This document shows, piece by piece, positions 9,780-62,039 of a stretch of 64,000 nt of DNA. The notes beneath the pieces were generated by a model. The model did not search any database, had not been told where the DNA came from, and saw nothing but the letters and a program-made list of their open reading frames with translations. Source of the stretch: Polytrichum commune (Eukaryota > Streptophyta > Polytrichopsida > Polytrichales > Polytrichaceae); assembly GCA_950295325.1 (NCBI GenBank), contig OX485806.1, forward strand, positions 50,897,169 through 50,961,168, in the 5' to 3' direction. A program made the translations under genes and the position numbers. Each line of letters begins with the position of its first letter. Position 1 is the first letter of the stretch.

Positions 9780-10246
9780 TAGGAAAACTTAGTAGTGTGA
9801 GCAGATAGCGGAGAGTGGAGAACAGAGATTGGAGAGCAAAAAATTTTGAGTTTGTTGGATAATTTTAGGACAATGTGTGCCTATTTCCGTGGAATTTATA
9901 GATAGTGTGAGGGCAATTTGTTGGAAAGGTACCCCATTCCCATGGAGATTATAACGCATTCTAGTTCGAGAAACAAGTAGAACCTAAAGGCGTGGAATAA
10001 TGTATTTGTTATCAAATATCTTATAGTCTAGGTTTGAAATGGTTTCATATTAAATTAGGGCTGACGTCAGCAATTGAAATCAAACATCAACAAAACATAT
10101 AGAAAGAGTTGAATGGGGATTTGCAAAATGCACAAAGAAATACAACAAATGAACTTAGAAAATATTTATAAAAAAAACAATACATTTGAGATAGAGTTTC
10201 CAAATGCACGAGGCGTAGTCAACTACTTGCACTACCATGACTATCA
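9780..10246 (-). repeat. 3' flank of locus A, duplicated at locus B
   Basis: This matches 61610-62039 by eye. Shared landmarks are AACTTAGTA(R)TGTGAGC, AGCGGAGAG, ATGTATTTGTTATCAA and GCAATTGAAAT. Similarity begins sharply at about 9780 and 61610 and continues into the last exons of both loci, so this marks one edge of the duplicated unit. No ORF. Confidence 0.65.
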
Positions 10247-10454
10247 TTATAGTCTATCATTATCCTCGCCCTACTCGGCCTGTATGTCTAGAAAATCCAA
10301 TACTAGGTTGTTGAAAGGTCGGATGCGACTAGGAGGTGGAGACGAAGCTTCCGCTAAAAGATTGGCAAGCTCAGCAGCATACGAAGGGAGCTCAAACATC
10401 TTGGAAGGACTCGAACATTTGCCTCAACGAAGGACTGCGTTCTCCCCTAGCACT
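10247..10454 (-). pseudogene. Locus A last exon
   Basis: After acceptor GGTTCAG it encodes a tail matching locus B: MFELPSYAAELANLLAEASS, then RPFNNLVLDFLDIQAE. A TGA interrupts the N-terminal part and a TAG follows QAE, where locus B has CAG. The frame ends TAA at 10247. Confidence 0.65.
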
Positions 10455-10551
10455 CTGAACCCCCAAGCAAGAAGATTAGAAACAAGATGACACATGATGA
10501 TGGGAAAATGACATGAAGGTAAACATGACAAAACATATAAAGTAAACTTAC

Positions 10552-10750
10552 GTACAAAAAAAACCGAATGCGCGTTTGGTCATCTTTTGAAGTGGATAAA
10601 AAATAGAGGTAGACGGTGGGGCAACTGAACGGGGAGTACGCGTAAGTTGGGGATCGCGCATGGGGAGTAAGATTGCATTGAAAATGATGGGGTCATTCTC
10701 AAGGGCCACGATATGCCGCTCAAGTGAGCGACATGCTGTAATCGAACCAC
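10552..10750 (-). pseudogene. Locus A exon completing motif I
   Basis: It starts after GCTTTAG in the phase that completes GGS, giving CGV-GGSITACRSLERHIVALENDP across the splice. This is the motif I loop, helix and acidic ribose-binding strand of SAM-dependent amino-methylases. It ends NAILLPMRDPQ.. and ..KMTKRAFGFFCT at donor GTAC|GTAAGT. The paralogous exon at 62573-62373 reads GGFVIACRFIQHHIVALESD. Confidence 0.7.
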
Positions 10751-11417
10751 CTAAAGCAAAGAGAGGGAAAATGTTAGTATGGAAACTAGTGAAGAAAAAA
10801 TAAGGGAATATTCAAAGTAAGGATGATGCTGAAAGAGAATTGTACTGTGAGGCCAAACCCACCCCCCTTAAGCGTCCTAGTCCGGGTGATGGTCTTGAGA
10901 ATCACATGTAGTGTATGTAGCATGAAAATTGATCTCTTCACATCATTAAGCATTCGTGTCATTTTGAATTACTTTGTTTATTTAGAAGTAGCCTCTTGGC
11001 TCGTGGTCGCGTTGGCCTTTTCTAGGGTCCAACCGGCGGCCTTGGCAACACAAACTCTCAAGGATATTCTCCTTTGGCCTTTGATTATCCTTTCCTTCAA
11101 CTTGCCCTTGCTAGAGTCCTCCATTTTATCCATTTCTTATAAGCGATTGAATCTCCCAAAAAGGACATAAGTGTTAAAAAAACACTCCCTCAATGGTTGA
11201 TCACAAGTACAATTGCCTTTGAGGCCACACGGAATTCTAGATAAACTAATGCTTTAACTATTTGGCTTGCACTACAAAATCTAACACCTAATGTAATGGT
11301 TTATAGAAGTACTAATGTAAGGTTGTTTAGGACTAGCCTTGACTAGCTTCTATGTTAAGTTGATGTGTAGATAAACTAATGCTTCTCACATCAATCCTCT
11401 TCCGGGCAACTCCGAGG

Positions 11418-11846
11418 CTTAGCCACCTCGTCACAGGGTCCAGCAGTCGGCTTAGCCACCTCGTCCAAGGTCCAACAGTCGCTTAGCCACCTCGTCCAAG
11501 GTCCAGCAGTCGCTTAGCCACCTCGTCCAAGGTCCAGCAGTCGCTTAGCCACCTCGTCCAAGGTCCAGCAGTCGCTTAGCCACCTCGTCCAAGGTCCAGT
11601 AGTCGGCTTAGCCACCTCGTCACAGGGTCCAGCAGTCGGCTTAGCCACCTCGTCCAAGGTCCAGCAGTCGCTTAGCCACTTCGTCACAGGGTCCAGCAGT
11701 CGGCTTAGCCACTTCGTCACATGGTCCAGAAGTCGGCTTAGCCACCTCGTCCAAGGTCCAGCAGTCGCTTAGCCACATCGTCACAGGGTCCAGCAGTCGC
11801 TTAGCCACCTCGTCCAAGGTCCAACAGTCGGCTTAGCCACCTCGCT
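11418..11846. repeat. Minisatellite, ~31-33-bp unit
   Basis: About 14 tandem units begin CTTAGCCACCTCGT. They alternate between a CCAAGGTCCAGCAGTCG form (31 bp) and a CACAGGGTCCAGCAGTCGG form (33 bp). The array lies in the family 2 element inside the intron of locus A. The open stretch on the minus strand is only the repeat read through. Confidence 0.9.
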
Positions 11847-12158
11847 AAATTTCACCATAACCAATTGAGCAACTAATTGCTCAAAGGCCCACATGCGAGC
11901 CTTTAGCTACACTCTTAAATGTAATTCCTCAAGATGCTTAATCGGACAATTGCTAACTCTTTTATTCGTCGGCTAATAAGCTAATTAATTACCTAACATC
12001 ACTAACTAATCCACACACGTGGACCCAAGCTCCAAGAGCTCATCTCCATTGAGGGAACTTGAGAGAGAGCTTAACTAACTAACTTCACTAAAAACTAATA
12101 ACCCACACACGTGGCTCAAGCTCTTAAGAGCTTGCTCCCTTGAGAGCTCTTGATGGAG

Positions 12159-13095
12159 TGTCGCGCACCTCTCCATGAGGAGTGCCCGCAACACCATGGG
12201 CACAAGGGGGACCCCGGAGTGACACCCGGGACTTGTGGCGCCATTGGTGAGAGGGCCCAAGTACTCTTAGTGTGGGTGAGGGCCCCGGGCGTTGAGAACG
12301 CCTCTCACCCACGAGGACTAAGAGTCATGAGGGTAAGGCCATAAGTTACGAGTAGCTTATGGCGGTGGAATTCTAGAATGCTAAAGAACACCTCAATCGG
12401 AGGTGCTAGCTAGGAGATATGGCCATTTGAGTGGGGCGCTGTCCCGGGACAGCACCCTGGGACAGCAGTGACCTGGGAGTGGTGCCCGGGACTGCCAAGG
12501 TTTGAGGAGCCATAACTTCCTCAATACTTGCCCGAATGGGGCAGGTGAGGAGTCCATCGGCATCTACGCAAAGAGTAGATGACGATAGAGTGGTCGCTTG
12601 AGAGCATCAGACATCATATGTAGAAGTTATGGTGGTCTGAAGCTACTGGGAGGTTCTAGCCCCAGCGGCTAAGGGAAAATGTCCACTTGGCCCCAACCCT
12701 TGTAGAGAGACAAAAGGATACTTGATGGTGGGGTAGGGGCCCCGCCCAAAGTCCTAGAGGCTTATATGGGTGAGGCGGCTTAGCCGACCGACCCCCCCGG
12801 AGCATACTTGGCAATGTGCTCCGGGTAGTTGTAGTGTTGTTTTGGCAACACGATGATCAACTCAAGAGTGGACTTCCATGGATGGAAGTCCACCTTAGCC
12901 ATTGGCTACCTACGAAGGGGAGAGTCCCGAATGCATGTGTAGGAGGGTTTGGTAACCTAGCCATGAGCTTGAAGGTCCGCGGTTTTGGGAGCTAACCATG
13001 CATGTGCGTGGGATGTGCAGGTTAGCGCTCGTGGCACTTGCTAGGTTGGAAAGGCGGTCAAGCTAAGTGAAGGAAAACTAGCAAGGGTTGCAACA
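12159..13095 (+). mobile_element. Solo LTR, family 1 (TSD TGGAG)
   Basis: This is a 937-bp LTR from TGTCGCGCACC to GGGTTGCAACA, with perfect 5-bp duplications TGGAG at 12154-12158 and 13096-13100. Compared with the 973-bp LTRs it lacks a block around the CCACCCGAGGCC segment and instead has GGCTTAGCCGACCGACC. The fragment at 48846 shares this variant, so the two define a subfamily. Confidence 0.92.
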
Positions 13096-13529
13096 TGGAG
13101 AGAGACGAAAATGAGAGAGAAAACACCTTAAGTAGTAAAAAGGGAGAGAGGGAGAGAGAGGTGAGGATAGGGTGAGAGGATTAGCACCTCCAATCACAAT
13201 CCCTTAACCCTCACCTCTAAAGTAGGGACTAATCCCCTTCCACCAAGCTTCTTTCTTCCTAAACTAACAAGGCGGATCCAAAAGTGGGCATTTAACCCGC
13301 GGAGCTCGCCTCGCCTCACCTTACCCCTTACTCACATAATCAAGGCATTTTCCTATTCAAATCAACCTTGAAATAATCACACAACACTACCTAATGCCTA
13401 AAGTTAAATCCACACCACACTTCACTCTTTTTATGTTTTGTGAATAATCATAATACCTCAAAGTCAAACTAAAATTGGTTTCGAGGAGTTAATCACCACA
13501 TGTGGGCACCATTTTGGGCTTACACGTAC

Positions 13530-13788
13530 CTACACCACACTGCCAGTCCATAATAACATCATTCTTGTCGGTGAAAGTAGCGAGGAGAATAGAGAAGAAA
13601 ACATGATGTTTTTCACGAGCACCTCTCCGAGGTATCCCATCAGAGCGCATCGTCTGGCTCTTCTCATCGGTGTAGGCATTCAACCATCCATATTGCTGGA
13701 GGTTGCAACCATACTCTTGCATGGCCTCCTCACACACTCTGAGAACGGAGTTAACACGAACAAGAACCTTGATGTTGAATTTCCGAGT
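13530..13788 (-). pseudogene. Locus A exon ending in methyltransferase motif I
   Basis: The exon runs from TRKFNIKVLVRVNSVL to KNDVIMDWQCGVG, with donor TAG|GTACG at 13530. The last residues are the first half of a SAM-binding motif I (DxxCGxG). Locus B has the homologous TRKFFIKVLVRNESVL..MGYNLKRDGWLN. The 2.8-kb intron that follows holds a family 2 LTR-like element, which itself carries a solo LTR and a minisatellite. Confidence 0.65.
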
Positions 13789-13877
13789 CTGAAAAAATTA
13801 AAACGATTTCATAAGTCTCAAAACAAGTGAAATAAAAGACAATACATAAGCGTACTAAGAGACAAAGAATTGCTTAC

Positions 13878-14213
13878 CACTCCAGAGGAATCCACAGGGG
13901 ATTGGAGGTCCAAATCATTCATACCAAACCAATCTTCAGCGACATAGAAATTGTAAGTGTGTGCCCAATAAAAAATAATCTTGGAAACAAAGGCACTTGT
14001 ACAATGGGCAAGGACAAAGACACCATGATCATAGAGGTTAGATTTCACAAATGCAAAAAGACACTCATATTATGATTCAAGGAGCTTGTTCCAGAATGGA
14101 ACATCGGTGAAGATGTTGGGCACCGGCAAATTCTTGGGAATGTCTGCGAAGAGCAAATCGAGGCCTTTGTGAGTTGTAGTCGAGGTGTTCACACGGGAAC
14201 GACCTGCCCCAAC
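13878..14213 (-). pseudogene. Locus A methyltransferase-like exon with motif IV candidate
   Basis: The exon begins VGAGRSRVN after TTGCAG and reads GLDLLFADIPKNLPVPNIF, then TDVPFWNK, then a TAA. It continues with LFAFVKSNLYDHGVFVLAH and HTYNFYVAEDWFGMNDLDLQ to donor GTG|GTAAGC. In beta-class amino-methylases a strand ending (D/N/S)PP(Y/F/W) is followed by a helix and a GG(V/I)LV strand. Here the candidates ADIP and DVPF are degenerate and the second strand is GVFVLAH. Locus B gives FADVPEN and DVP*WNK. Catalysis is therefore doubtful even before pseudogenisation. Confidence 0.55.
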
Positions 14214-14310
14214 CTGCAATTAAAACTTCATGAGAAAACAAGAGCAAGGAAAAAAAGAAGCAAACCAAAAGGAAAGGAGCCTGAAAAATGATGAAGGGAA
14301 AGATACAAAC

Positions 14311-15912
14311 CTTGGCAATGAACTCTTGCATACGGGTATGTGCTGGGAGGGGACCTCCTGCAAGCTCAAAATCCAGCATGAGTTGTACCATGTCCACATT
14401 TTCGATGAGGGCAAGCGTGTTAGGCAACTCCGAAGAGGTGGCACTCGTATCTAAGAAGGCCGCCTTCCTCTTGTGAGGCAAGGAGAGAAGAGAAATACCA
14501 CTGTGAGAAGGAATAACAATAGTTTGTGGACAAAAGGCTGAGGGAATACCAGAGGGGACAGCTGATGGAGCAACGGAGGGAGTGCTAGATGGACTCCGTA
14601 GGATGGTGGGTGGCTGAACATGGGTCTTTCAAGCAGACCGAGTGACAAGGTGGGAAGAAGTTGAATGGCGGTATTCTTTGCTCTGCCATTTCCCTTTGGT
14701 GCCTTGGGCGGAGGAAGCTCAACGATGTCAGGCTCCTCAAAGGGGATAATGTTCTCCTCGGGAGCACTACTTACAAGGCTGGCAAAAAAAAAACTTCTCT
14801 TTCCCAAGCACAAATCCTCCATAACAATCCAAGTACAATCCCCCAGTGTCGCAACCCTTGCTAGGTCCCTTAACAATCTTGCCAATTTTCGTTTCTAGCA
14901 AAGGTTACGAGCGCTAACCATTCGCATTCCGTCATGCTAATGGATAGCTCCTCTTACCCCGGACCAATAGTTCATAGGAGGGAACCAACCCTCCTACTTT
15001 GCTTTCGGGACTCACCCCTTAATCGGTAACCCATTTCCCCAATGTGGACTTCCATCCATGGAAGTCCAATCCTATGTGGATCATCGCGTTGCCGGAGCAA
15101 CACTACAACAACCCGAAGCATACTAGGCAACTATGGCCTCACAATAGGCCAAAGCCCATGGAGGCCTTGCCGTTCGGCCTCGGGTGGGTGAGGCCACACC
15201 ACCTCACCCATATAAGCCTCTAGGACTCTACACGGAGCCCCTACCCCACCGCCAACCAACCTCTTGTCTCTCTACCAAGAGTTGGGGCCAAGTGGACATT
15301 TTCCCTTAGCTGCTGGGCCTAGAACCCCCCCAGCAGCTTCAGACCATCATAACTTCCTTGTATGATGTCTGATCATAACAACCAACCACTCCATCCTCAT
15401 CTATGCTTCACGTAGATGCCGATGGACTCCTTGCTTGCCCCATTCAAGGAAGTCTTGAGGAAGTTATGCCTGTTTGAACCTTGGCAGTCCCGGGAATCAC
15501 TCCCAGGCACTGCTGTACCAGGGCGCTGTCCCGGGACAGCACCCCACTCAAATGGCCATAACTCCTAGCTCACACCTCCGATTGAGGTGATCTTGAGCAT
15601 TCTAGAATCACCACGCCATGAGCTACGCATAGCTCATGGCCTCACCCTTATGCCTCCTAGTCTTCGTGGGTGGGAGGCGTTCCCAACGCCCCGGCCCTCA
15701 CCCACACTAGGATCACTTGGGCCCTCTCACCAACGGCGCCACAAGTCCCGGGTGTCACTCCGGGGTCCCCCTTGTGCCCATGGTGTTTCGGCCACTCCTC
15801 ATGGAGAGGTGCGGGACACCCAGCCTGTAGGTGAGACTCAAGAAACTTGGTTGTTTGCGTGGTCATGTACACGCAGAGGCTAGAAAACACGTTCACCCAG
15901 TCCGAGATATAA
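14311..15912 (-). pseudogene. Locus A exon split by a solo LTR
   Basis: The exon starts after TATTGTAG at 15912 with YISDWVNVFSSLCVYM. It is interrupted in ..HLQAG by the solo LTR 15818-14847 and resumes as GLYLDCYGGFV. Locus B reads HLVVGGWYLDCSRGFI at the same place, confirming that the coding frame is continuous once the LTR is subtracted. A T10 run near 14785 causes a frameshift. The exon continues through KRKAAFLDTSATSSE and LIENVDMVQLM to a donor AAG|GTTTG at 14311, at the same position as in locus B. Confidence 0.65.
14847..15818 (-). mobile_element. Solo LTR, family 1, in a coding exon (TSD CCCAG)
   Basis: This 972-bp reverse-oriented LTR is very close to the 31.6-kb LTRs. Perfect duplications CCCAG lie at 14842-14846 and 15819-15823. 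It interrupts a locus A exon, and subtracting the LTR and one duplication gives an uninterrupted codon series matching locus B. It must postdate the insertion of a full element and its LTR-LTR recombination. Confidence 0.93.
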
Positions 15913-16032
15913 CTACAATACAAAAAAAATAAGATAACCATGGAAAATAGCAGGAATGGAGTGCAAAAATGCAAGAAATGAAGTGCACAAGAGCAAGAAG
16001 TGAAGAGTAAAAATGGAGGATAATACCATTAC

Positions 16033-17161
16033 CGATAGGCGATGCGCTTGATAGCCAGAGCACCCTCCTCGAATTCCAAGAAGTTATCACCTTTGGCAAT
16101 GGGAATATCAGGCTTATCGCCGAAGTAAGGCTTGAAGGCTCTGTCCCAATGAAGAATCCTCCAATGATTAACATACTTACGAGGGTGCAAGATAATCTCC
16201 GATGCGTCCCAATCGATATCGACGATGAGGTTGTCCTAAAATGTTTTAATCTGGACCGAGACTTCTTTCTCTAACTGAAATGAGGGAGAGAGAGTGAAAT
16301 TAAATATGAAACAAGAGGAATAAAATCAAATTAAGAAAGCCAAGGAATAGATATACCTTATCCCAAAATGAAGCCTTGTGAAGCCAGTCATCCAAGGCAT
16401 TCTCCCTCATACGTTTGTCGATGGGAAATTTATTCTCCAACCTCTCACGAATTGAGGCCTTCCACCAATGAATCCATTTGGATTTGAATGAAGCTTCGAC
16501 CGGACATGTGACAATTTTTTGCAACTTTTCAATTGTCATGTCTGTCGAGGTGAATTCATTAAAGTGCCGGTCAATCTGCATACGTCCAAAAAAATGAAAT
16601 GAGTTCAGGAGGGTACATAAATGAAATGATTATTCATATAAAAAGAAACATGGAAGTGAAGAAGGGATACCTCGTAAAAGAAGTCCTCCCCATTGTCAGG
16701 ATGTGCAACCAAGATATATTTTTCAAATATGCGTGCTCGAATGGTCTTGATTGTCTATTTATGGGCCTTGCTCATGATATTCCAAATCTCAGTAGCAGTC
16801 CTCTCAGCAACCAGAGTGGTTTGACGGTAATGCCTTACTGCAAGGTCAACTTGAGCCGAAATGTCTCTCTGCAAAAAATAACCTTGTGAGGAAATACAAT
16901 CGGCATGTAAATGCAAAATAGAATGCAAGTAGGGAAATGGAGAAGACGAAATGCAAAATCATAACTTATAAAGAAATTTGTCGAAGACATCCGCGGTGGA
17001 AATTGTACCAAGTAGGGCGACTCTCTGTAATCTTCTTGCATGTTTTGTAGTCAGTAGGAGAGATGAGATTCTTGAACATCGATAACTCCAATATCCCAAA
17101 CGTATGAATTCGAAGGAGTTTGGCATGAATGTTCGCTTTCACGTAATCATGCTCTTTAGAC
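16033..17161 (-). pseudogene. Locus A middle exons (four)
   Basis: Four exons can be placed by GT..AG borders: 17161-~16966, 16868-16671, 16575-16357 and 16274-16033. The last three join in phase (..DFFYE to IDRHFNEF.., ..ASFWDK to LEKEVSV.., ..KRIAYR to YISDW..). They encode a helical, tryptophan-rich region with no motif I recognise. It probably links the ParB-like and methyltransferase-like parts. TAG stops interrupt the second and fourth exons; the latter (..IKTF*DN) looks like a TGG-to-TAG change. Confidence 0.6.
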
Positions 17162-17228
17162 CTGAGAGAAAAAATATGAGAACCGGCCTATAAAAAGAAC
17201 GGAGGAAATAAAAAAAGTATATGCTTAC

Positions 17229-17654
17229 CAATTAATGTCGCTCATTGCGTTGAGGAAGACACCGGTACATCCCTTGGGGTCGACTACAATACAATCCACC
17301 GAGACATGTCTACTCTTCTCGTTAGCGTGGTTGTTGTTGATATGCCTCCACCATGCTGTGAGTCGATGATTTCCTTCCCATACGAAGAACATCTTCCCAA
17401 AGAGATGTGCAAGATCCGGATCCTCCTTTAGTTTGACATCGAACTCCGCGGAGGCCTCTTACCAGAGAGGGCTCCATGAGGCCATAATGGCAAGGGAAAC
17501 CGAGAGGTCTATAGGAATGTCGTTGAAAACCGAAACGTACATTATCCGATCTCCCTCTTGGTATCCCATAACAAACTCACATTCCAAACACAGCAATAAC
17601 ATTGTCCTCTGCAGACTGATGTTGCTCCTCCGCAACCTCAAAAGATTGAGAACC
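17229..17654 (-). pseudogene. Locus A ParB/sulfiredoxin-like exon
   Basis: The exon lies between acceptor TTCTTAG and donor TTG|GTAAGC. It encodes GYQEGDRIMYVSVFNDIPID, then MASWSPLW, then MFFVWEGNHRLTAWWRHI and VDCIVVDPKGCTGVF. The hydrophobic strand followed by GNHRLxAW fits the phosphate-binding signature of the ParB-N/sulfiredoxin fold (GxHRxxA or GERRxxA). A TAA follows ..SPLW, and a one-base shift occurs upstream near 17590, before GYQEGDR. A small 5' exon may lie at about 17890-17800. Fold assignment is by motif only. Confidence 0.6.
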
Positions 17655-17930
17655 CTAAGAACATGAAACCATTTTAGAATTTCCAAACGAACAATAAAAA
17701 AAACACATACAAGTTACCAATATCTTACTAACTATCAAAAAAATAACTCCCAATTTAGTTTGAACCCAAACTAATATAATTATCATATAGGAGACAAACG
17801 AGAACCGACCACATTCAAAGCCGCCATCATGATGAGATACAAGTGTCAAACAGGTCCTTGCGATTGTAAATAAAAGAAACTCCTGAAAAGAAAGCAAGGC
17901 CAAGCCAAAGTCATGTAGGCTCTCTAAGAA

Positions 17931-19076
17931 GAGGCCTCGGATCCGAGGCCTCCTCCATTACCTCAAACATATGCACTTAGCAAAACAAGATAAGGCCGAG
18001 AGTAAAGTCAAGTAGCAAACTCATGTACACCTAACATGTAGATTTCCAAAGCAAGAACTTTCATACAAAGAGGCCTCGGATCCGAGGCCTCCTTCCCTAA
18101 CTCTTACATATGCACTAAACAAAAGAAGACAAGGCCGAACACAAAGTCAAGTAGCCAACCATTCCATGTAAATTTCCAAACCAAGAACATACAATAAAAA
18201 GAGGCCTCGGATCCGAGGCCTCCCATCCTAGCTCCTACATATGCACTTAGCAAAACAAAACAAACCCAAGAGCAAAATAATGTGCATATCACATCTTGAT
18301 TTTTCAAGCACAACCCTACACACAAAAGAGGCCTCTTTTTCTAGCTCCTACATATGCACTTAGCAAAACAAAAAATGGCCGAGAGCAAACTACTTTACAC
18401 ATCACATCTTGATTTTTCAAGCACAAACCTACACCCAAAAGAGGCCTCGGATCCGAGGCCCCTTCCCCTAGCTCCTACATATGCACTTAACAAAACAAGA
18501 AATGGCCGAATACAAAGTCAAGTAGCCAACTCAAGTATAGATAATATTTTGATTTACACACCAAGAACCTACATACCTTGGCCGAGAGTAAAGTCAAATG
18601 GACATTCCATGTAGATTTCCAAACCAAGAACCCACACCCAAAAGAGGCCTCGGATCCGAGGCCTCTTCCCCTTGCTCTTATATATGCACTTAGCAAAACA
18701 AAAAATGGCCGAGAGGAAACTAATGTGCACATAACATTTTGATTTTTCAAGCACAAACATACACTTCAAAAAAACCTCGGATCCGAGGCCTCTTCCCCTA
18801 GCTCTTATATATGCACTTAGCAAAACAAGAAATGGCCGAGAGCAAACTAATAAACACATAACATTTTGATTTTTCAAGCACAAACATACACTTAAAAAAA
18901 ACCTCGGATCCGAGGCGTCTTCTCAAAGTTCCTACATATGCACTTAGCAAAACAAGACAAAGCCAAGAGCAAACTAATGTGCACATAACATTTTTCAAGC
19001 ACAAACCTACATCCAAAAGAGGCCTCTTCCCCTAGCTCTTACTTATGCACTTAACAAAACAAGAAATGGTCGAAAG
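17931..19076. repeat. Satellite array with a 22-bp perfect palindrome per unit
   Basis: These are tandem units of about 115-140 bp (one interval ~200 bp). Each has a 22-bp perfect palindrome made of GAGGCCTC arms around a GGATCC core, followed by a TTCCCCTAGCTCCTACATA-type stretch, ATGCACTTAGCAAAACAAG and GGCCGAGAGCAAA. Palindromes begin near 17931, 18070, 18201, 18441, 18644, 18773 and 18899; half-forms lie at 18328 and 19019. The array lies in the putative intron of locus A between exon 2 and the ParB exon. Confidence 0.9.
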
Positions 19077-19690
19077 CAATGTCAAGTACCAACACATGTA
19101 CACATAACATGACAAGGCCGAGAGAAAGTCAAGAGTACATTCCATGTAGTTTGAGAAAACAAAAACCTCTCCTCACTCAAAACCCTACGTCTCACATACT
19201 TGACATATCAAGACAAGGCCGAGAGCAACTTAAGTGGAAATTCCATGTAGTTTGAGAAATCAAAAACCCTCTCCTCAACTCAAAACCCTACCTCTCACAT
19301 GTTCCTAAACCCAAAACAAGACAAGGCTGAGAGCAAGTCAAGTGGACATTCCATATAAATTGAAAAAGCAAGAACCTCTCCTCACTCAAAACCCTACCTC
19401 TCACATACTAACTTGACATATCAAGACAAGGCCGAGAGCAACCCAAGTGAACATTCCATGTAGTTTGAGAAATCAAAAACCCTCTCCTCAACTCAAAACC
19501 CTACCTATCACATGTTCCTAAACCCAAAACAAGACAAGGCCAAGAGCAACTCAAGTGGACATTCCATGTAGTTTGAGAAAGCAAGAACCTCACGTCACTC
19601 AAAACCCTACCTCTCACATACTCACTAAACCCAAATCAAGACAAGGCCGAGAGCAAGTCAAGTTGACATTCCATGTATTTTGAGAAATCA
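19077..19690. repeat. Second tandem array, ~105-110-bp unit
   Basis: About six units share GACAAGGCCGAGAGCAA, GTCAAGTGGACATTCCATGT, AGTTTGAGAAA and CTCAAAACCCTACCTCTCAC. The unit is related to the neighbouring satellite through its GGCCGAGAGCAA part but lacks the palindrome. Two decayed palindromes reappear just beyond it, at 19758 and 19886. Confidence 0.85.
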
Positions 19691-19975
19691 AGTTAATACA
19701 AAGCAAAATCCTCGGCCAACAGGTAGTTTTACAAAGCAAAATTGTCGGCCAACATTTGGCCTTGGATCCGAGGCCTTTTCTTTTACCTCACCTGATTCAC
19801 TTACCCTAAACATACCAAGGCCGATAGCCATAGTCATGCAGACTAGTCATTTACATTTACAAAAACAATAACCCTCGGCCAAATGGAGGCCTCGAATCCG
19901 AGGCCTCCTTCCCCCAACCTCTCATTATGCACACTTCTAAACCAACATAGCATGGCCGAAAGCCCGACACCTTAC

Positions 19976-20928
19976 CAAAATTTGGAGTATGCCATCCACT
20001 GAAGCCCCAATATCCGTGCCACTATCTTCCGAGCTTCCGTCCTCTGTCGACGTTATTGGAGTGCTCTTTGAGTCACCGAGGTTTACCTGCGCCTTTTCTC
20101 TCCCGCGGCCATGCCCTTGCCTCAATGTTTGTTGTGTTCCGCCCGCCTTGCTTCACAGAAATCTTGAAGCATGGGTCACAATATCCACATTTAGGGTTTC
20201 AGTCCCTGGGCCTCCTCCTTCAGCTCTTTCGCGGCCTCCGAGAAAATTTGATTTCAGATCTTCCTCTACCGCTTTCCTCTTAGACGCCTTCATTTTTTCA
20301 TTTTTTTGAATCGTTGGTTGTCCTGACAGCAGTCCTAGCTCTTCTAACGCCTTCTCAGTTTGTTGTGCTACCTCCACGTTGTCTTCTTCTTCGTAGCTAT
20401 TTCCATTCTCTCCACTCCCCCATCCTCCTATATTTAAGAGATAACAATGTTTATAACAATGATGACAAACCATAATATTTAAGAGATAGTTATTTCACAG
20501 TTGAATTTGTTCTACCATTTTAATTATGTGCTCAGACAACTGAATATATGGAGAACCCGAAGAATATGTACAACGCTTGTAGAGTTCGTCTCTTCGCGTG
20601 AGTCCTCTTGGATGCTGTCATTTCCCAATTCTTCCACTTCTGCCATTGTCTGTGTTTTACTTCCGTCCGCCTCTTCTACAATCGGTGATAAAAGAAAAGG
20701 CCAAATCTCACAGTCTAGCCTCCACGAAGGTTTAGGGTTTAGGTACTTAATGCTTTGGCTCAAATCCTCGGGCGTCCCACGGCCCTCAATTGGCGCATTC
20801 ATTGACTGTATCTTTTGTATCCTCACTGTCTTCCTCTTTTTATCTGTGTAATGTGTAGACGATCGCCTCCTCTTTTTCTTCTTTGATGGTTCCGTTGTCG
20901 GAGGTTGTGTATTGCCTATTTCCTTCAT
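19976..20928 (-). pseudogene. Locus A N-terminal exons 1-2
   Basis: Exon 1 starts at the ATG at 20928, about 100 bp downstream of a TATA box. It encodes a basic tract (KKKKRRRSS) followed by low-complexity acidic sequence; its donor near 20590 is uncertain. Exon 2 (20427-19976) follows an AATATAG acceptor and contains KASKRKAVEED. One in-frame TGA lies near 20151, where the reading frame otherwise continues to a consensus donor TTG|GTAAGG at 19976. This looks like a disordered, nuclear-localised N-terminus. That it belongs to the same gene as the downstream exons rests on strand, donor and order, not on a transcript. Confidence 0.55.
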
Positions 20929-21031
20929 GTGTTTAGCCCTCTTGTAATTCAGACCAAATCGTTTTTTTTTTCCACAACCTCACCACATCAAACTCACACA
21001 TTGGAAAGAGAATGAGCTTGCATTCTTCTCA

Positions 21032-21038
21032 ATATATA
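21032..21038 (-). promoter_or_regulatory. TATA box of locus A
   Basis: TATATAT on the minus strand lies 104 bp upstream of the ATG at 20928, in otherwise featureless sequence. A nested solo LTR (21072-24208) begins 33 bp upstream of it. Confidence 0.5.
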
Positions 21039-21071
21039 ATTCATGTTTAGGGTTTTCCACTTTCTGACAGA

Positions 21072-24000
21072 TGTGAGCCCAAAATGGAGCCCACACATGC
21101 TCTTAAACCTTAAAATTCACTAAAACTTAGGCTTTGATTTTCATCAAATGTGCAAAAACATAAAAAGAATGAGCTTTGAATTTGGAAGTTGAATTAAGCA
21201 TTAGGCTAGGACTTTAGCACTTAATTGCTAGTAAGGGAGTAGCTCAAGTTAGGATTTAGTAACCATGCTTGGGTGTTGGGGTGTTCATTTTGGGCAATGG
21301 CCATGCTTGTGATTCGAGGAGGCCGTTACCCAACGGTGGGTAAGGCTCTGGATTTCCGGATCCATGGAAGAGGCCCCAAGACCTCTCTCACTCTCGGAGA
21401 AGTGAACAAGGGAGGTTTAAACGATGCGGAAGAGCTGCCGAATTTTGGATGTGGGAGGCCGTCCTCGATGAGGGAGGAAGAGGATGGATTATTAGCTGCT
21501 TGAAGAGAGGCCGGATGCCGAATCTTCTATCGGCTGTCTCCATCAGCTCAGTGCGACTTCAAACCAAGAACAGATTGCAGATTCCAGCCCCGACACACAT
21601 GATGAGGGGGAGTGTGCGGAGCTGAACCAGGACCTTCGGCAATTTGCGGCTTGGTCTGCGAATGCAGGCAGGTTGTGAGCCCAAATACAGGTTCACTCAG
21701 GTTATTTAACCTGAAAGTTCATTAAGACTTGAGTTTTGACTTTGCGTTGATAATATTAAAAACATAAAAAGAGTAGAAACATGTGTGTGTGGTTTTTAGA
21801 CCATAAAATATAATGGTGGGGGTTATTGGTCGACCTTCGTAAGGCAATAATAAGGAAATGCCAAGCCGTAGTGGTAGGTAGGAAGTTAGTTAATAGGGGC
21901 GGGGTTCAACCCAGTTGAGTTAGGCTTAACAACTGTTTGATTAAGGGGGGTGCACCTCACCCCTAACAATTTTCGGGCCGGGACCGAAGAGAAGCCCATG
22001 GTCTGTTTTCGGTTGGCTCTCTCTCAATGCGTCTGGGGACGGCTACGGTCAGGGGAAGCAAGGGGCAGTCGAGGGAATGCGGCTAGAGAGATCTCTGAGG
22101 AAGAAATGGACTGAAGCTGATCACGCTCGGGGGACATGGTTGGATGCGAAGGAGGTGTTGCTTGCGCAGCTGGTACGAATAGCAGTTCAGCAAGAGGAGG
22201 GCGAGGAATTGGAGTAGAAAATGAAGGATCCACGACCAGGGAAGAGGCAGGGTGCCGAACCACGCACAAAGCGCCCACGACATTGGGATAATCAATTTCT
22301 GAAGTGCAATGCGGGTGGCACCGCATTCAACGAGCCACATTGCACTGGTTTTTTTTTCCGGTAAGGATTTCTGCAGGCAGCTCGATTAAGCCAAGGGGTG
22401 CAGCGACTTCAAATTCTGGTTGCTCGGTCCCTGCGGTTCGGATTGATGCCTGAGTACGGGGATTCGACGAGCAACATCCTCGGACAGATTGCTACGAATT
22501 GTGGTTGAGCTGGGTTGTAGTCAATCGACGGGATGGGGAAGCACCGAAGTGTGGCAGATGCAGGGGAATCAGCTTAGGCAATGGGCTCAGCATCCAGTGA
22601 AGACGGGATGAACTTCGAGCTGCAGGAAAGGGGTAAGGTACCGGCAGCTAAGGGCTTAGGCCGAGGGGAGGTGCAGAAGGATGCCCAGAGAGGATGCATG
22701 ACGGGCGTTGACGGGTGTCAACCACCAGGAACAACGTAGATCTGGGGCTGGGGGACCGGGACTGAAGGTTTTTACGGGGGCTCGGCCGACTCTGAGGGGG
22801 CTCCCCCAAAGGTTGAACTCACTAATTAAGTAGAAAAAAAGGTTAGGCTAGGGAAGTGTGGGGTTAGCGGGGTAATGAGCTTCAAAATGTGATGCTTACA
22901 CCCTAGGATTGATAGTGTGGAATTGGGTTTTGAGTTTTTTAATGTTGAGAAACAGTGAAGGGAGGACCAAGGAAAAAGAAACATTGCTAAATGCTTGTAC
23001 CTTCATCCATGAATAAATTATTGTGTTGATATTCACATGTTGGGAGGGTACGAATCATACTAGTGGGGTAGAAGGTGTTGAGTGGTGGATGTAATCCACA
23101 TACCCTCATCCGGACTAGGACGCTTAAGGGTGAGGGTTTAGGGCTCACACATGTGAAGGAGCAAGGCGCATCTTCGGTCGACGATTCAAAATAGGCGAGG
23201 ACATTAATGGCAAGTTGCAAGAGGTGAGTTACATGTAGTCGACAGCGTGTTTCACGAAGAATGAGGAGCAGTCCTGGACAATCTGAGGTGGAGTGGAGAG
23301 GCGAGCTAGCAGTTGTCCACATTGAGACAGAGCGAATTAGTTGACTACCATTGTCGCATCAACCGGCTCTGTGACTCCTTGCACAACAGAGGGTGGCATT
23401 CAAACGATTATGCTGCTGCGTTCTAGATCGTTTGGGAAGAATCGACAATAGATGCGGCGGAGCAAGCCAACTAGCAAAGCCAGGCTGTGTCAACGCCTCA
23501 CCTAATCAGACACTTGTTGCGAGCCATCTCGGAGCTGTAGTAATCTCAGCTGCGGCTTAGACAGAGGCAGGCATTCTTTAATCCCAGCTAGCCTTGTGCC
23601 GAGCATGGGGCAGTTGCTGCAAGGCCAGAAGCAGGGAGAACACAGGAGGTGATCTCAACCAGCAGGGGTCCAGGAGGTCCTCATCAATGCCAAGTGGCAG
23701 AGAGGAAGGGAGTCTTCCAAAGGTGGTTGCTGAGGCGAGTCATACCGATTGCTGTTGTGGAAGACAGAGTACTCTATTGGCATTTTTTTTATGATCTCCT
23801 TCATTGCAGTAGCGTGGTTAGAAGTTGGAATGTACAGGTGTGGCTTTGGAATGATTGGTGAAATTGAGGTAGTGGGCATAGGCAAGCCAAAGGTATAATT
23901 GGTGTTGCCTCAATGCCATTATGAAATAACTTAGGTTAGTTAATTAGCTCTTTGTTGTAGGTTGGAGGCTTGAGAGCGGGTGTTGAAGTTTAGTGGGTGA

Positions 24001-24208
24001 TTGTATTTAGTAATGACTACAAGGAATGAGAGTATTTCTAAATACTTGTGACCTTGTGTTCTTCCAATAAAGGTTGTGTGTTTTATATTTACTTGGATGG
24101 AGCATTGAGAGCTTGATTCCAATGGCTAAGGAAAGCCATGCAAGTACATGTGAGCCATGGGCTCTCACCCGGATTACAACGCCCAAGGGTGGCGGTTTAT
24201 GACTGACA
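21072..24208 (-). mobile_element. Solo LTR, family 2, outer copy (TSD ACAGA)
   Basis: On the plus strand it starts TGTGAGCCCAAAATGG and ends GGTTTATGACTGACA. Perfect duplications ACAGA lie at 21067-21071 and 24209-24213. A second copy of the same family (21674-23149) is nested inside; without it the element is about 1.66 kb. The short ORFs within have no recognisable product. It separates the promoters of locus A and the transposase. Confidence 0.8.
21674..23149 (-). mobile_element. Solo LTR, family 2, inner copy
   Basis: This 1476-bp element runs from TGTGAGCCCAAAT to GGGTTTAGGGCTCACA on the plus strand. The flanks CAGGT (21669-21673) and CATGT (23150-23154) differ at one base. It inserted into the outer copy in the same orientation. 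Confidence 0.7.
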
Positions 24209-24255
24209 ACAGACGTTCCCCGTTTTCTTTTTTTTGGCATCCTTCATCTATTCCG

Positions 24256-24263
24256 TATATATC
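24256..24263 (+). promoter_or_regulatory. TATA box of the MULE-like transposase
   Basis: TATATATC lies 40 bp upstream of the ATG at 24303, a good spacing for a short leader. With the solo LTR at 21072-24208 and one ACAGA subtracted, it lies about 75 bp from the opposite-facing TATA box of locus A. Confidence 0.45.
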
Positions 24264-24302
24264 TCTATGGTTTTCTCGTATTTTGTGCCTTCTTTGTCAG
24301 AG

Positions 24303-27300
24303 ATGGCGGAATTCCGTGCCAATGGCTTCGGAGTGCCCATCCTCTTTCCTATAGATGCAGACGGATTTGCACATTTCTCTTCCCTCCACCTTAGTATCAG
24401 GTTCACCTCACAGGATGGTTCAATCTGGGTTGAACGCGAGATTTATGATCCCCTTACCTCTTTGTTGTCCTTGACCATGCGCGAGAATCCCATTCTTGCC
24501 GACAACAGATCATCTGTGAGGAAACTTGTCGCAGGTAAATACAGAGTCTACGGACTCCCTGAATCTCGGCCACACGTTTCCACCGAGATCCGTACCCCTA
24601 TTTTTTCATCCGTTTCCACTTTCAACACCCCTCCCGCCGTTCGTCTCAAGATTGAACCTGGTATTCATACTGTCATACATCTTTCTAATTCATCTCATGG
24701 TGATGAGCCCGTTCATTCCACTCCTATGGTCGAGCCATCTTTGTCCTCCCTCGGTCCCCCCTCCGTGACCCCCCTCTTGTACGCCTTGATCCCATGTGTC
24801 CTCTTCCCCCATCCCCTCCCAAATCCACCCTTTCCATTCTTCAATGTCTTCGTACTCTTGCTTCCATGCCCGGTAGGAAAAACATCCTCAAGAAGCTAGA
24901 TTATGACACCTTGCAAATTGAAGACGTGAATTTCCTCCCCCCTCGCTTTGATGGTGATCTTATGTTTGTCCTACCCCCAGTTGGTGTCTTTTCCTCTCAT
25001 ACGAAGGCCCAATTCATGGACGGCATGGACAAACGCTATGACGGCCATGTTTCAACCAAGACCTAGACCACCAATATCACCAATGACATGGGCTTTGTTT
25101 TTTGCTCCTCCACTTGCGTTGGCCACCTCCAGTGCCAAAATCCTCAGTGCGATTACCTACAACGTGCTCATCGGACCTCCCCGGTCAATGATACTGATTT
25201 CAACGGACTCACCAAAGAGCCCTTCCATGTTGGTGGTCCCTTGCCTTTGGGATCCACTCTAATGTGCTAGATCTGTAAGCAGCCTTCCAAATGCATTGCA
25301 CCATGTCACGCCAAAATCTTCTACGTCCACGGCAATGACACCACTTAGCGTGCCTGTATTCATCTGGGCAACCATCGTCATCCTGTCAAGGTTAGCAACA
25401 ATAGCCGCAAGCGCATCGACGCCCTCATCGAGGAGCACGTCGAGCGAACGCCCCAAGCCACTTATACCAAAATCGTCCTTAAAGCCAGCAACGACGTTGT
25501 GGGTGAGTTCCTCCTCCGCAATGATAGTGATCCTCATCAACTTCTTTTTTTGGAAAAACTTGAGCCCGTTTTTTATCGTTGCAAAGAGTTGAATTCCCCC
25601 CATGTCGCAACCCTTGATAGTCCCCTTAAAAATCTTGCCAATGTCCATTTCTAGCAAATGTTACGAGTGCTAACCCTTCGCATACCGCCACGCTAATGGT
25701 TAGCTCCTCCTACCCCGGACCTTATAGTTCATAGAAGGGGAACCAACCCTCTTACTTTGCTTTCGGGACTCATCCCCTTAATTGGTAACCAATCCTTAGA
25801 TGTGGACTTCCATCCATGGAAGTCCCATCTTATGTTGATCATTGCATTGCTGGAGCAACACTACAACAACCTGAAGCAACTATGGCCTCACAATGGGCCA
25901 AAGCCCATGGAGGCTGTGTCGTTCCGCCTCGGGTGGGTGAGGCCACACCACCTCACCCATATAAGCCTCTCGGACTCTACGTGGGGCCCCTACTCCACCG
26001 TCAAGAGACCTCTTGTCTCTCTACCAAGAGTTGGGGCCAAGTAAACATTTTCCCTTAGCTGTTGGGCCTCGAAGCCCCTAGCAGCTTCAGACCATCATAA
26101 CTTCCTTGTATGATGCCTGATGCTAACAAGCAACCACTCTATCTTCATCTAAACTTCACGTAAATGCCGATTAACTCCTCACTTGCCCCATTCCAGCAAG
26201 AATTGACGAAGTTATGCCTGGTTGAACCTTGGCAGTCCCGGGAATCATCCCAGGCACTGCTGTACCAGGGCGCTGTCCCGGGACAGCGCCCCACTCAAAT
26301 GGCCATAACTCCTTGCTCACACCTCCGATTGAGGTGTTCTTGAGCATTCTAGAATCACCCCGCCATGAGCTAGGCATAGCTCATGGCCTTACCCTCGTGC
26401 CTCTTAGTCTCTGTGGGAGGGAGGCGTTCTCAATGCCCGGGGCCCTCGCCCACATTAGGATCAATTGGGCCCTCTCACCAATGGCACCACAAGTCCCGAG
26501 TGTCACTCCGGGGTCCCCCTTGTGCCCATGGTGTTTTGGGCTCTCCTCATGGAGAGGTGCGCGACACCCCACCTCCGAAACAAGGTAACCACCTTCAAAT
26601 ACTTATGTAGGTTAGGATTTATGGATGGCATTGCCAAGCTTGATGGGGATCTCGAGCATGCTTGGATCATGTCCGACCATGTCCGACCATGTCAGACGCG
26701 TCGCCAAGTGGACCACCATGGCCTGCCATGTATACGACGGAACCTACCAGTGCATTATGACCATCGTTTGCTGTGACTTTCAATTCGAGGACAAGGATGC
26801 TCAAGTGTTTTTCTGGCACAACCTCAACCACGTCATGGCTAGGCATGGAATTCCCAAGCCTCACTTCAAAGGCTTCATGGCGGACAGTGCGCAAGCCAAT
26901 TGGAATGCCGCCAGGATTGTCTACGGGTCCGGAGATCCAAAGGTTCCCATCGATGGGCGCGAGAGAACCTGCTACTTCCATTGGACCCAGTCTTTGGAGA
27001 AAACACACCAAACTTTATATCAAGCACGACTTGCAAGACCAACACAAACGTCTCTGCCTCCAGTATCGTGACGCATCCTCTATGATGGAGGTAGAGACGA
27101 GGTACCTTGCCATCAAGGCCTGGTGGGCTTCGTCTAACTGCACCTCCGAGGAGGGGCTGAAACACCTTCAACTTTGGCTGGCCTTCTGGCACTTTCGATA
27201 TCGACATGGGGTGGCTTCATGGAATTGATGCATTTGTTTTGTTTTAATTTTTTTTTTTATCATTTTTTTTTCAAGCTTTGCTTATTCCTTACAGTGCCAT

Positions 27301-27453
27301 TCCATTTTGCAAGAGAAAATCATGATTGTCGAGGAATTTGCACAAATGCCCAATTGTAACTTTGCCGAATCCATTCACAACAAATGGCTTCAAGCGTTCG
27401 GCAACAAGGGTGGCGATCTATACGTGGTCACTGTGGATGACTACATTCAAGCC
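24303..27453 (+). pseudogene. MULE-like DDE transposase pseudogene
   Basis: Exons read MAEFRANGFGVPILFPIDAD (24303), LDYDTLQIEDVNFLPPRFDG, then a Cys-rich block (CSSTCVGHLQCQNPQC). A zinc-finger-like ICKQPSKCIAPC..RACIHLGNHRHPV follows, with the GNHxHP pattern of MULE N-terminal WRKY/GCM1-type fingers. Next comes a DDE-type core (ACHVYDGTYQCIMTIVCCDF, FKGFMADSAQANWNAARIV, ERTCYFHW). The C-terminal region is WLAFWHFRYRH.., then NFAESIHNKWLQAFGNKGGD after an intron. Frameshifts near 24790, 26690 and 27000 and stops (for example 25064 and 25268) disable it, as does a solo LTR at 25603-26566. The 3' end is lost at 27453, where gypsy sequence starts. Superfamily call is by motif. Confidence 0.75.
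25603..26566 (-). mobile_element. Solo LTR, family 1, in the transposase (TSD CCCCA)
   Basis: This 964-bp reverse LTR has perfect duplications CCCCA at 25598-25602 and 26567-26571. Subtracting it gives an uninterrupted reading (KELNSP to HLRNKVTTFKY), so it landed in a coding exon. It contains a perfect 24-bp palindrome centred on CCCGGG near 26276. Confidence 0.93.
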
Positions 27454-30400
27454 TTCATTCGAGATTTTTCTATGGTTGCTAGAACCTTATTCAACTTGTT
27501 GAAAAATAAGAATAAAAATGGCTATCCTAAGAGTGGGATGAGCCTTGTGACCAAGCCTTTGGGGAGCTCAAAAGCAAGATGTGGTTAAGTTCCCGGGTTT
27601 TCACACGCATTTTAAGGTGCATAAGAAGGCGAAGGACTTAACCATTGGCGGATGTTGATCCAAGATGGATGACCATTGCATATGAGAGCATTAGGCTCAA
27701 TGGTTGTCGAACCTTGTCCAGTTTGTGCAAGAAAGGGCTATCCCAAGAGTGGGATGAGCCTTGCCACCAAGTGTTTGAGAAGCCTAAGAGCAAGTTGTCT
27801 TCGCCGCCTGTGCTCAAGTTTGCGGAGTTTGCCAAACCTTTTGAAGTGCATACATGGACGAGTGACTTTACCATTGGCGGATGTTGTTGCAAGATGGATG
27901 GCCATTGCATATGAGAGCATGAAGCTCGATGGTTGTCCCACCTTGTCTGACTTGTGGAAGAAATGGCTATCCTAAAAGTGGGATGATGTTTGTCACGAGT
28001 CTTTGGGGAGCTTAAGACCAAGTTTTCTTTGCCGCCCGTGCTCAAGTTCGCGGAGCTTGACAAACCTTTTGCGGTGCATACGGGGGTGACTGACTTTGCC
28101 AATGGTGGATTGTTGATGTAAGATGGATGGCCATTGCATATGGGAGCATGAAGCTCGATGGTTGTCAAAGAAGACAACCAACTCCTGACAAAGAACTTCT
28201 TTGCCGTAGTGCATTCTTTGAAGATGTGGCGACATTATTTGGGGTCGCACAAAGCAAAGGTCTACATGGACAATGTGTCCTAAAAGAATTTTGACATACA
28301 AGCGCAAATGAACGCCAAGTCATTGCGGTGGCATGATAGTTTGGTGCTTATGAAGGTGGATTTGATCCACAAACCGGACCGTGGAAATGTGGTGCTGGAT
28401 GCGCTAAGTAGACCGGAAGAGTTCCAAGCAATGAGAACCATCCAAACCTTGTGGCTAATGTGTGCCGGCAAAGGAAACTTGTGATGCAAGATACGGGAGG
28501 GGTAAATTAACTACCCCGAGGCACAAAAGTTTTTAGGTGACTTCGCAAGAGCAAGGTGCTCAAAGAGGTTAAGTTGGTGGACTGGACGAATTGTTCAAGT
28601 GTAAGCAAAGTTGGGTGTATGTGCCACAAGGCAAGTTGAGGCTATCGGTTCGGAAGGAAGAATGTGATAGTCCTATTGCTAGCCATAGAGGAGAAAGAAA
28701 AACTGCCATAGAATGGTGTCTTGGAGGTACCATTGGCGGTGCATAAAAGATGATATAGCCCACTTTGTGAAGGTTTGGATGAAGTGCCAAGCGAACCAAA
28801 CCTCTTACCAAAAGCAAGGCGGTTTCTTGCAACTGTTGTCTATTCCGCCGGGGCCATGGCATTGTATGTGCATGGACTTGATCACAAGTTTGCCGGAGTC
28901 ACATGGGTATGATGCCATCTTGTTGATGGTAGAGCGGTTTGCCAAGTGGGCACACATGGTGCCGATTGTGGGAACCCAGACCGCGTTGGAGACCGCATAG
29001 TCTTTTCTCAAAGGATGGTTGAGGCACCACGGGTTGCCAAGAGTGATTGTGTCGGATCAAGATCCAAAGTTCACAAGTGCATTTTCAATGCATTTCTCTA
29101 AGGAGGTCGGAATGAAACTAGGGATTAGCACGGCCTTACATTCCCAAATGGGTGGGAAAATGGAGTGTGTGAATGGAGTCTTGAAGCAATACCAAGGAGA
29201 TTGGGCGAACTATGTGGGTCGAGCGGAGTTTAGTTGTAATGTAGCCACGCACTTGGCGACCAAAGGGTTGTTTTTCATGGTGGCTTATGGAGTGGATGCG
29301 CTCCAACCTACTAACCTAGCTCTCGAGGGGGCACATTCAACACTAGAGTTCAACCAAGATGGTGAGGATTTGGCCAAGGAGCAAAAACAAGTCTTGGAGA
29401 TGACCAAGTTGTTGGTGGAGAAAGCCCGAAGGTGCTACGAAGTGCAAGTCAATGCCACAAGATGCAAAGTGGAGTATGAGGGGGCCTAAAAGATGTTGTT
29501 GAATGTGGACAACTTTACCTTGGAAGGCCTTATTCCAAAGTTCGTGTCCTAAATTGGAGCTCTGTTTCCCATTGTGGAACAAGTGTTCAAGGACATATAT
29601 AAGTTGGAATTACTGCCCGAGGTCAAAGTGCATCCAACATTTCATGTCTCATTACGAAAATCATTTTAGGACGACACCTTGTGGCCCGATCACAACTAGG
29701 TGATTAGGCCACCTCCCGACCTTGTGGAGGTCATTTGGAACATGAGGTAAGAAGTCATCCTCAAATGTAGGAAACCCAAATGAAAGAAAATGTACAAAGG
29801 AGTACTTGGTGAAATGGTGAAGATACCATGAGAAAGAAACCGCTTAGGTGGCAGCAAGAGACATGGTGAACGCCAAGGAATTGGTGAAGCACTTTGAAGA
29901 AACTAAGGCTAAGGGTTCCAATAAAAAGAAGCGTAGGCATTGATGAGGACATCAATCTCCTTTAGTGGGGGAGATACATTAGTAGCACACTTAGCTTCAA
30001 GGCAATGCCGTCCACAACATGAACCTGTTCTTTGGCTTAAGGCAATAAAGTTCAACTTTAGTGGTGCAAAGAGAAAAGTATGAGATGAGGTCTTAGTCTT
30101 GCACTTGTGTTTGGTTAGTGGAAGAAGGGGAATAGACATGCCAAACTAGGTTGGGTAAGCCGAGTAATTGGGGGCCATGGCTTGGAGGGGCCTTGGATAA
30201 AACCAAGAAACCTCTTAGCCATGGACTTGTCCGGGTGGGGGTAAGGTGATGGCGTGTGCTCATAAAAGTGCTACCCACGAGCTAACGAGAGTTGGCGCAT
30301 GGGAGTCATGAACCCATGTCTCGAAATAGCAAAGTGGGAACCAAGTCGGGCGGGATTTGGCATCATCCCCGTGCGATCGAGGCGTGGCTTAACAATGGAA

Positions 30401-32563: not shown

Positions 32564-32568
32564 CAAAT

Positions 32569-32585
32569 TATCAGAGCAGGGTTCC
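32569..32585 (+). promoter_or_regulatory. Primer binding site
   Basis: TATCAGAGCAGGGTTCC lies five bases after the LTR end. It resembles the complement of plant initiator-Met tRNA but lacks the TGG expected to pair with the CCA end. Confidence 0.6.
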
Positions 32586-32603
32586 AAGTTTTGAACTCGC
32601 ACT

Positions 32604-34200: not shown

Positions 34201-34213
34201 GTTCTAGAGGTAT

Positions 34214-36507: not shown

Positions 36508-36519
36508 TAAATTGCAATT

Positions 36520-38644: not shown

Positions 38645-38649
38645 CAAAT

Positions 38650-60115: not shown

Positions 60116-60225
60116 AATCTAAAACTGGACAACACTTCTATGTGAGCGGTGAGCGGAGAACGGATATGAAGTAAAAAAAACATATTGTCAAGACTAAATC
60201 TAGATGTTTTGGGATCTATATTCAA

Positions 60226-61609: not shown

Positions 61610-62039
61610 CTGGGAAACTTAGTAATGTGAGCATAGAGCGGAGAGCGGAGTTTGGAGAGTAGAAAATTTGAATTATGATGGACGATTTTCATTGAAGAAG
61701 TGCCTATGACTGTGGATTTTGGAGATACTTTAAATTCAATTCGTTGAAAATGTACTCCATTCCCGTGGATTTTTTAACACAATCTAATTGGAGAAACAAA
61801 TAGAAAGTGAAGAAGTAGAAGAATGTATTTGTTATCAAGGTTATTGTAGTGTAGTTATCAAAAGGTTAAGGGTTAAATTAGGGTTGACATTAGCAATTGA
61901 AATTAAAAAACAACATAAGATGAAGAAGAGGTTGAATGGGGTTTGCAAAAGGTACATGGAAATTCAATAAATGAACTTATAAAAAACTTAAATATAAACA
62001 ATACATATGAGATGGAGGTTCTAAACGCATGAAGCGTAG
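61610..62039 (-). repeat. 3' flank of locus B, duplicate of the locus A flank
   Basis: This matches 9780-10246. The similarity starts at AACTTAGTAATGTGAGC and continues into the last exon of locus B. Confidence 0.65.

Follow-up and report, generated by a model that had tools for sequence, protein, structure and literature searches.

Introduction

ParB-methyltransferase accessory genes are already known from DNA transposons of algae. The 21.5-kb Ectocarpus element Sola1-1_Ec32 encodes, on the strand opposite to its transposase, a product of 1104 amino acids with a ParB-like and an N4/N6-type DNA methyltransferase domain, and ParB-methyltransferase accessory proteins are also found in transposons of green and red algae; these algal proteins were suggested to bind and epigenetically modify the sequence of their own transposon (PMC12477816). 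They were reported without a target, and no word beginning with "palindrom" occurs in that paper. Here we describe a comparable system in Polytrichum commune, found in a 64,000-bp stretch (the window) at positions 50,897,169-50,961,168 of contig C4, which contains a gene for a ParB-like and DNA-methyltransferase-like protein (locus A) and, divergent from it, a transposase gene. Searching the genome (407.8 Mb, 64 contigs), we found both genes inside one family of DNA transposons that resemble Mutator-like elements (MULEs). Judged by the literature searched, what the family adds to the known accessory class is a MULE-like carrier, an altered catalytic motif and, above all, arrays of palindromes in introns.

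As in the algal class, a ParB-like and a methyltransferase domain are encoded in one gene on the strand opposite to the transposase of a DNA transposon, with methyltransferase matches that are weak here. Set against the published description of the Sola1 element, the carrier differs in being MULE/IS256-like with 10-bp duplications, and the protein in having DIPE at motif IV. MULEs in general leave duplications of 8-11 bp and can carry extra open reading frames (PMC6446971). In the VANDAL MULEs of Arabidopsis, the accessory protein VANC21 binds YAGTATTAY, a motif repeated in tandem upstream of VANA21 as well as within introns of VANC21 and VANB21, and both motif and protein vary between VANDAL families (PMC5735166). 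Our family shares with VANDAL and VANC a MULE-like carrier with an accessory gene whose introns hold arrays of short motifs. It differs in that its accessory protein is ParB-like and methyltransferase-like rather than of the VANC type (DUF1985/DUF287), with no Pfam family on the protein of copy E3, and in that its motif is palindromic. Methyltransferase genes are also carried by retrotransposons, with Dam-like enzymes in DIRS elements and DNMTs in others (PMC5890265). From those our family is set apart by being a DNA transposon and by the fusion of a beta-class-like domain with altered catalytic motif to a ParB-like domain.

Two divergent genes form one mobile unit

Locus A starts, as the original prediction had it, with an ATG at 20928 on the minus strand, and its coding pieces reach to about 10274; the predicted transposase start was confirmed as well, in a plus-strand frame with ATGs at 24267 and 24303. 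The left end of the element, at 9782, lies beyond the range then considered (10247..27453). The parts of this copy, called copy A, are as follows.

10274..20928, minus strand: ParB-like plus DNA-methyltransferase-like gene (locus A), multi-exon, decayed, traced by matches to E3 exons, with in-frame stops (LW*EAS, HK*TIK, TF*DNL, ES*YEC)
20928-20575, 20419-19976, 17626-17228, 17160-16999, 16997-16650, minus strand: first five matches to E3 exons
16578-16354, 16277-15819, 14844-13875, 13788-13528, 10757-10638, minus strand: other five matches to E3 exons
24267..27462, plus strand: MULE-like (IS256/Mutator-type) transposase by the fold of its relative P0010, decayed, 3' part missing
9782..9802, plus strand: left terminus (GGAAAACTTAGTAGTGTGAGC), a sharp boundary common to copy B (at 61612) and copies E1, E2 and E3

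Copy A is a dead relic, because both genes are broken by in-frame stops and inserts of a long terminal repeat (LTR) family, and the transposase, with three stops in the compared stretch and an LTR insert at 25595-26571, is cut off at about 27462. Scanned against Pfam, the raw translations of 12000-20928 in the three minus-strand frames matched no family.

Elsewhere in the genome, where intact copies exist, a query with a 114-residue methyltransferase exon gave 150 scored matches among 1,000 candidates, and one with the transposase N-terminus gave 150 among 955. A divergent transposase lies on the upstream side within 20 kb of 88 of the 150 scored methyltransferase exons, compared with a single case on the same strand, and the number rises to 99 within 30 kb. 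When transposase positions were moved by 0.2-2 Mb in 200 trials, the mean was 1.0 pair within 20 kb and the maximum 5, versus the 88 observed. Across 99 pairs the two genes correlate in identity (Spearman 0.79), a result that common descent of entire elements would equally produce. By eye, many of the listed element matches crowd at about 42-58 Mb of contig C4.

Exact patterns of the element ends occur 91 times (left) and 77 times (right) genome-wide, with no hits for the reversed controls. Forty-eight left ends could be paired with a right end within 45 kb; for two left ends the right end was on their own strand but on the wrong side, and for none was it on the other strand. Of the 48 end pairs, 41 enclose both genes, oriented as expected, while two pairs enclose a scored methyltransferase exon only, five a scored transposase only and none neither, bringing the pairs with an enclosed transposase to 46. 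The end-defined copies measure 13-20 kb in 33 of 48 cases. Among the first ten end pairs in genome order, all on contig C1, nine are flanked by a perfect 10-bp target duplication and one by none; duplications of 10 bp likewise flank copies E3, E2, C and B. This length falls within the 8-11 bp of MULE and Mutator elements.

From the pairing (88/150), the enclosing ends (41/48) and the duplications (9/10), we regard it as practically certain that the ParB-methyltransferase-like gene and the transposase are one mobile unit, which the original prediction had suggested alongside a captured pair. The two patterns that it named as contradicting this, methyltransferase genes regularly standing without a neighbouring transposase and transposon ends that exclude the locus A gene, do not hold for the family. 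The short divergent spacing in the window would also suit two host genes sharing a bidirectional promoter, or mere chance neighbours, but with 88 loci found against 1.0 expected, inside ends with 10-bp duplications, we consider this explanation refuted and its probability practically nil.

Young and nested copies

Three young copies, E1, E2 and E3, lie on three contigs and, repeats excluded, share 97-99.8% identity in the main stretches that align; the right side of E1 is partly inverted and 95-97% identical. In each of them the exon-1 ATG and the transposase ATG are about 356 bp apart. E3 is 17,479 bp long with GATTGTGGAA flanking both sides, E2 is flanked by CGGATGGATG, and copy C, just right of the window (67135-82358 in window coordinates), by GAATCAGGCC. 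The inverted ends of E3 are imperfect: left positions 12-50 match the inverted right end at 95% over 39 bp, and the outermost 11 bases agree at 4. The right end of E1 was not found; rearrangement has affected its transposase part, behind which lies a second, diverged copy. Two further copies are partly contained in the window.

61612..64000, minus strand: copy B, with left terminus at 61612 and the 3' part of its ParB-methyltransferase-like gene at 62392-64000, running on to 87239 in window coordinates, CAATTACACT at both ends
60127..61618, minus strand: copy D, with right terminus at 60127 and transposase C-terminus, interrupted by copy B

These form a three-level nest from 60127 to 91411 in region R (110,301 bp, comprising the window and 46 kb of flanking DNA), partly beyond the window, in which C separates the ParB exon of B from its exon 1, and B in turn interrupts the transposase gene of D. 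The left terminus of D was not found.

Low dN/dS of both genes in the compared exons

For the ParB exon and one methyltransferase exon, E3 was compared with C, A and B; five of these comparisons had a computable dS and yielded dN/dS values of 0.13-0.21, with dS saturated for the ParB exon of E3 versus B. The first transposase exon of E3 gave 0.12-0.31 against the same copies. The transposases of E3 and E2 gave 0.89 on very few changes, and the comparison with E1 fell on its second, diverged transposase copy. Decay accounts for some of the divergence of A and B, both of which have stops.

These values bear on the view that the accessory gene is a captured passenger of a MULE-like element, with no function for it. 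MULEs often capture genes (PMC6446971, PMC13317346), and five of the 48 end pairs enclose a transposase without a scored methyltransferase exon. However, both genes are retained in 41 of the 48 end-defined elements and in diverged subfamilies, at about 37-72% identity over matched exon stretches; in the protein database the ParB exon family and the transposase have similar breadth (230 and 231 clusters); and ParB-methyltransferase genes recur in other transposon classes (PMC12477816). Low dN/dS and the retention of the gene pair thus disfavour a passenger, which we consider very unlikely. Database gene calls P0001-P0009 and P0130-P0249 are family exons running into introns, and the family recurs in public metagenome proteins.

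Transposase and accessory protein

The predicted fold of the transposase relative P0010 is closest to ISCth4 of the IS256 family, at low model confidence, and a SWIM-like CxC...CxH tail can be read in the transposase sequence; no Pfam MULE or SWIM match was obtained at E<=1. IS256 and MULE transposases are akin, and the closest assignment by the model is a DDE-type, MULE/IS256-like enzyme. Together with the 10-bp duplications, the fold, at that low confidence, and the SWIM-like tail resemble MuDR/MULE and IS256 elements, whereas the short, imperfect inverted ends and the additional ParB-methyltransferase-like gene differ from MuDR/MULE.

For the N-terminal part of the accessory protein, the model (pLDDT 84.9) predicts a ParB/sulfiredoxin fold: the best 14 VIA-align rows are ParB-type, and the best Foldseek E value is 0.0076. 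No Pfam family, ParB_N included, matched the spliced E3 protein at E<=1. The GxxR-type phosphate-binding motif EGNHR, which we take to be the ParB box, is present in 42 of 49 aligned relatives, the other seven being unmatched by the pattern. In its ParB/Srx fold and arrays of palindromic sites the system is like bacterial ParB-parS (Noc, KorB, PadC), but it differs in the missing Pfam ParB_N match, in the fusion to a methyltransferase-like domain and in that binding is putative here. Pfam ParB_N matches over the cut-off were seen on open frames of contigs C12 and C23 (L001-L003), for which bacterial contamination is our guess.

The C-terminal half has weak DNA methyltransferase matches: DWQCGVGGS aligns with DPFMGSGTT (motif I) of DpnA at E 0.016, a weak PHROG match has E 2e-4, and a Pfam match of 0.086 falls below the cut-off. 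At what is presumably motif IV, placed by spacing and recall, the (D/S/N)PP(Y/F/W) pattern is replaced by DIPE or DIPK in 30 of 30 close copies and by DVPE in copy B. A search of solved-structure sequences with the ParB and transposase profiles gave no match at E<=10, and a scan of viral and genome contig collections with peptide patterns from the methyltransferase and ParB alignments found no prokaryotic or viral relative.

The motif-I-type stretch in register with DpnA would fit an active methyltransferase that marks the palindromes or ends of its own element, licensing transposition or protecting the element. Such a role has been proposed in print for the algal proteins (PMC12477816), and methyltransferases carried by retrotransposons, Dam-like in DIRS and DNMTs in others (PMC5890265), offer a parallel. 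The reading DIPE or DIPK in place of DPPY in all 30 close copies argues against it, however, and we consider active self-marking unlikely.

Palindrome arrays in the introns of the accessory gene

Between the exon matches of locus A lie the remains of an array.

17936..18914, no strand: remains of intron palindrome array, seven exact CTCGG-NN-CCGAG cores starting at 17936, 18075, 18206, 18446, 18649, 18776 and 18903

The 64-kb window holds no other exact core, and nine sites are counted when one mismatch is allowed. Against about 0 expected, exact cores number 41 in E3, 43 in E2, 34 in E1 (counted rightward of its left terminus), 9 in C, 7 in A and 4 in B (12 in B with one mismatch allowed); an 8.3-kb piece of copy D has none. 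Six regions of middle or low identity (L049-L054), chosen from the pair list among those short enough, have 37, 45, 32, 0, 24 and 0, and the two regions with zero hold 10 and 15 one-mismatch sites of the form CTCGGAATCGAG, compared with 0-0.2 one-mismatch cores expected per region. About 57 kb of region R lie outside copies A-D, and this DNA has no site at up to one mismatch; nor do the flanks of E1-E3 contain any.

When all 5+2+5 palindromes were ranked de novo, CTCGG-NN-CCGAG came first in 8 of 10 regions, among which E3, C and A represent one subfamily. Arm identity of the aligned sites follows by construction, the sites having been picked by their core; counts and de novo ranking are the unbiased measures. 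Repeat units vary (about 80, 85, 127, 139 and 202 bp), the distal flanks of their consensuses agree at only 32%, and the palindromes are spaced roughly 80-200 bp apart. A single stretch flanked by coding pieces holds all 41 sites of E3; other subfamilies likewise have their arrays between coding pieces, in more than one place. A 22-bp form, GAGGCCTCGGATCCGAGGCCTC, occurs at 1,903 sites genome-wide, with none for the reversed control, and 49 of 50 listed sites are in three end-defined elements. The one exact 22-bp palindrome outside such elements among these 50 is at C1:13839475-13839496. Subfamily variants have AT, AA or TT at the centre and GAGGC or CCCT as outer arms.

These arrays probably are what the accessory protein recognises. 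The ParB fold, EGNHR in 42 of 49 relatives and the arrays themselves would also agree with a partition or clamp function, with parS-like arrays as loading sites from which the ParB-like domain would spread and thereby, for instance, hold, cluster or segregate copies or excised DNA. Yet no ParA-type partner is evident among the listed E3 frames, to which the search was confined, and a cut-and-paste element has no obvious need of partition; we consider such a function quite unlikely.

Intergenic region and LTR inserts in the window

Besides the one in the transposase, three inserts of LTR type interrupt copy A, between its genes or within locus A.

21072..24208, plus strand: apparently composite LTR-like insert of 3,137 bp separating the divergent genes, TG...CA with ACAGA duplication
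14839..15819, minus strand: solo-LTR-like insert inside locus A, 99.7% identical to the LTR of element 31591-38659
10846..13526, minus strand: LTR-family insert in locus A, enclosing 12153-13095, ends read by eye

The first had been called a solo LTR. Its TG start, CA end and flanking ACAGA on both sides agree with this, but the name is plausible rather than proven, because the DNA examined holds a single partial further copy (410 bp, 79%). With a second LTR-like start at 21674 and an LTR-like end at 23149 inside it, the insert looks composite. Without it the ATGs at 20928 and 24303 would be 232 bp apart, close to the predicted 233 bp. The compact bidirectional promoter proposed from this spacing is only partly supported by sequence comparison: A, E3 and C all have a short divergent intergenic region (232, 355 and 354 bp), and TATATAATT on the locus A side is conserved in E3 and C, but TATATAT, the putative TATA box on the transposase side, is not.

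The LTRs of element 31591-38659 are about 989 bp long and 99.7% identical, and related LTR copies lie at 80-830, 991-1955, 7697-8671, 12153-13095, 14839-15819 and 25595-26571. The stretch 27453-30683, which adjoins the cut transposase of copy A, is 89% identical to 34336-37597 within that element.

Proposed mechanism and significance

We propose that these elements are Mutator-like DNA transposons equipped with a sequence-specific accessory factor, in a layout like that of VANC and VANDAL, and give this reading a probability of roughly 0.6. It builds on what is observed: the two-gene unit with its ends and duplications, the conserved pairing, the low dN/dS of the compared exons and the arrays. 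Between imperfect inverted ends, two divergent genes would encode a DDE-type transposase and a ParB/sulfiredoxin-methyltransferase-like accessory protein. The transposase would move the entire unit, leaving 10-bp duplications, and the accessory protein may recognise the palindrome arrays of its own element and load there through its ParB-like domain. Against the part of this reading that makes the two genes one mobile unit stand three observations: 11 of the 61 methyltransferase exons at >=91% identity have no scored divergent partner within 50 kb, seven transposase copies at >=94% identity have no scored methyltransferase exon, and a search of region R that allowed up to 4 mismatches found no right terminus for copy A.

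Once loaded, the accessory protein could change related copies in their chromatin or DNA state and thereby keep them expressible, the effect that VANC has on VANDAL MULEs. Such an anti-silencing outcome, rather than marking or partition, is possible, with a chance that we put slightly short of even. More tentative still is the full picture, that of a self-recognition system built from prokaryote-type parts, in which a ParB-like clamp and a methyltransferase-like domain act on parS-like intron arrays, protein and palindrome co-evolve between subfamilies, related copies are kept active against silencing, and the arrays are the missing target of the algal-type accessory proteins.

The palindrome arrays provide a candidate target for ParB-methyltransferase accessory proteins, a class that was reported without one (PMC12477816). 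Moreover, since the VANC/VANDAL layout is matched here by unrelated protein parts, self-recognition in transposons may have evolved more than once.

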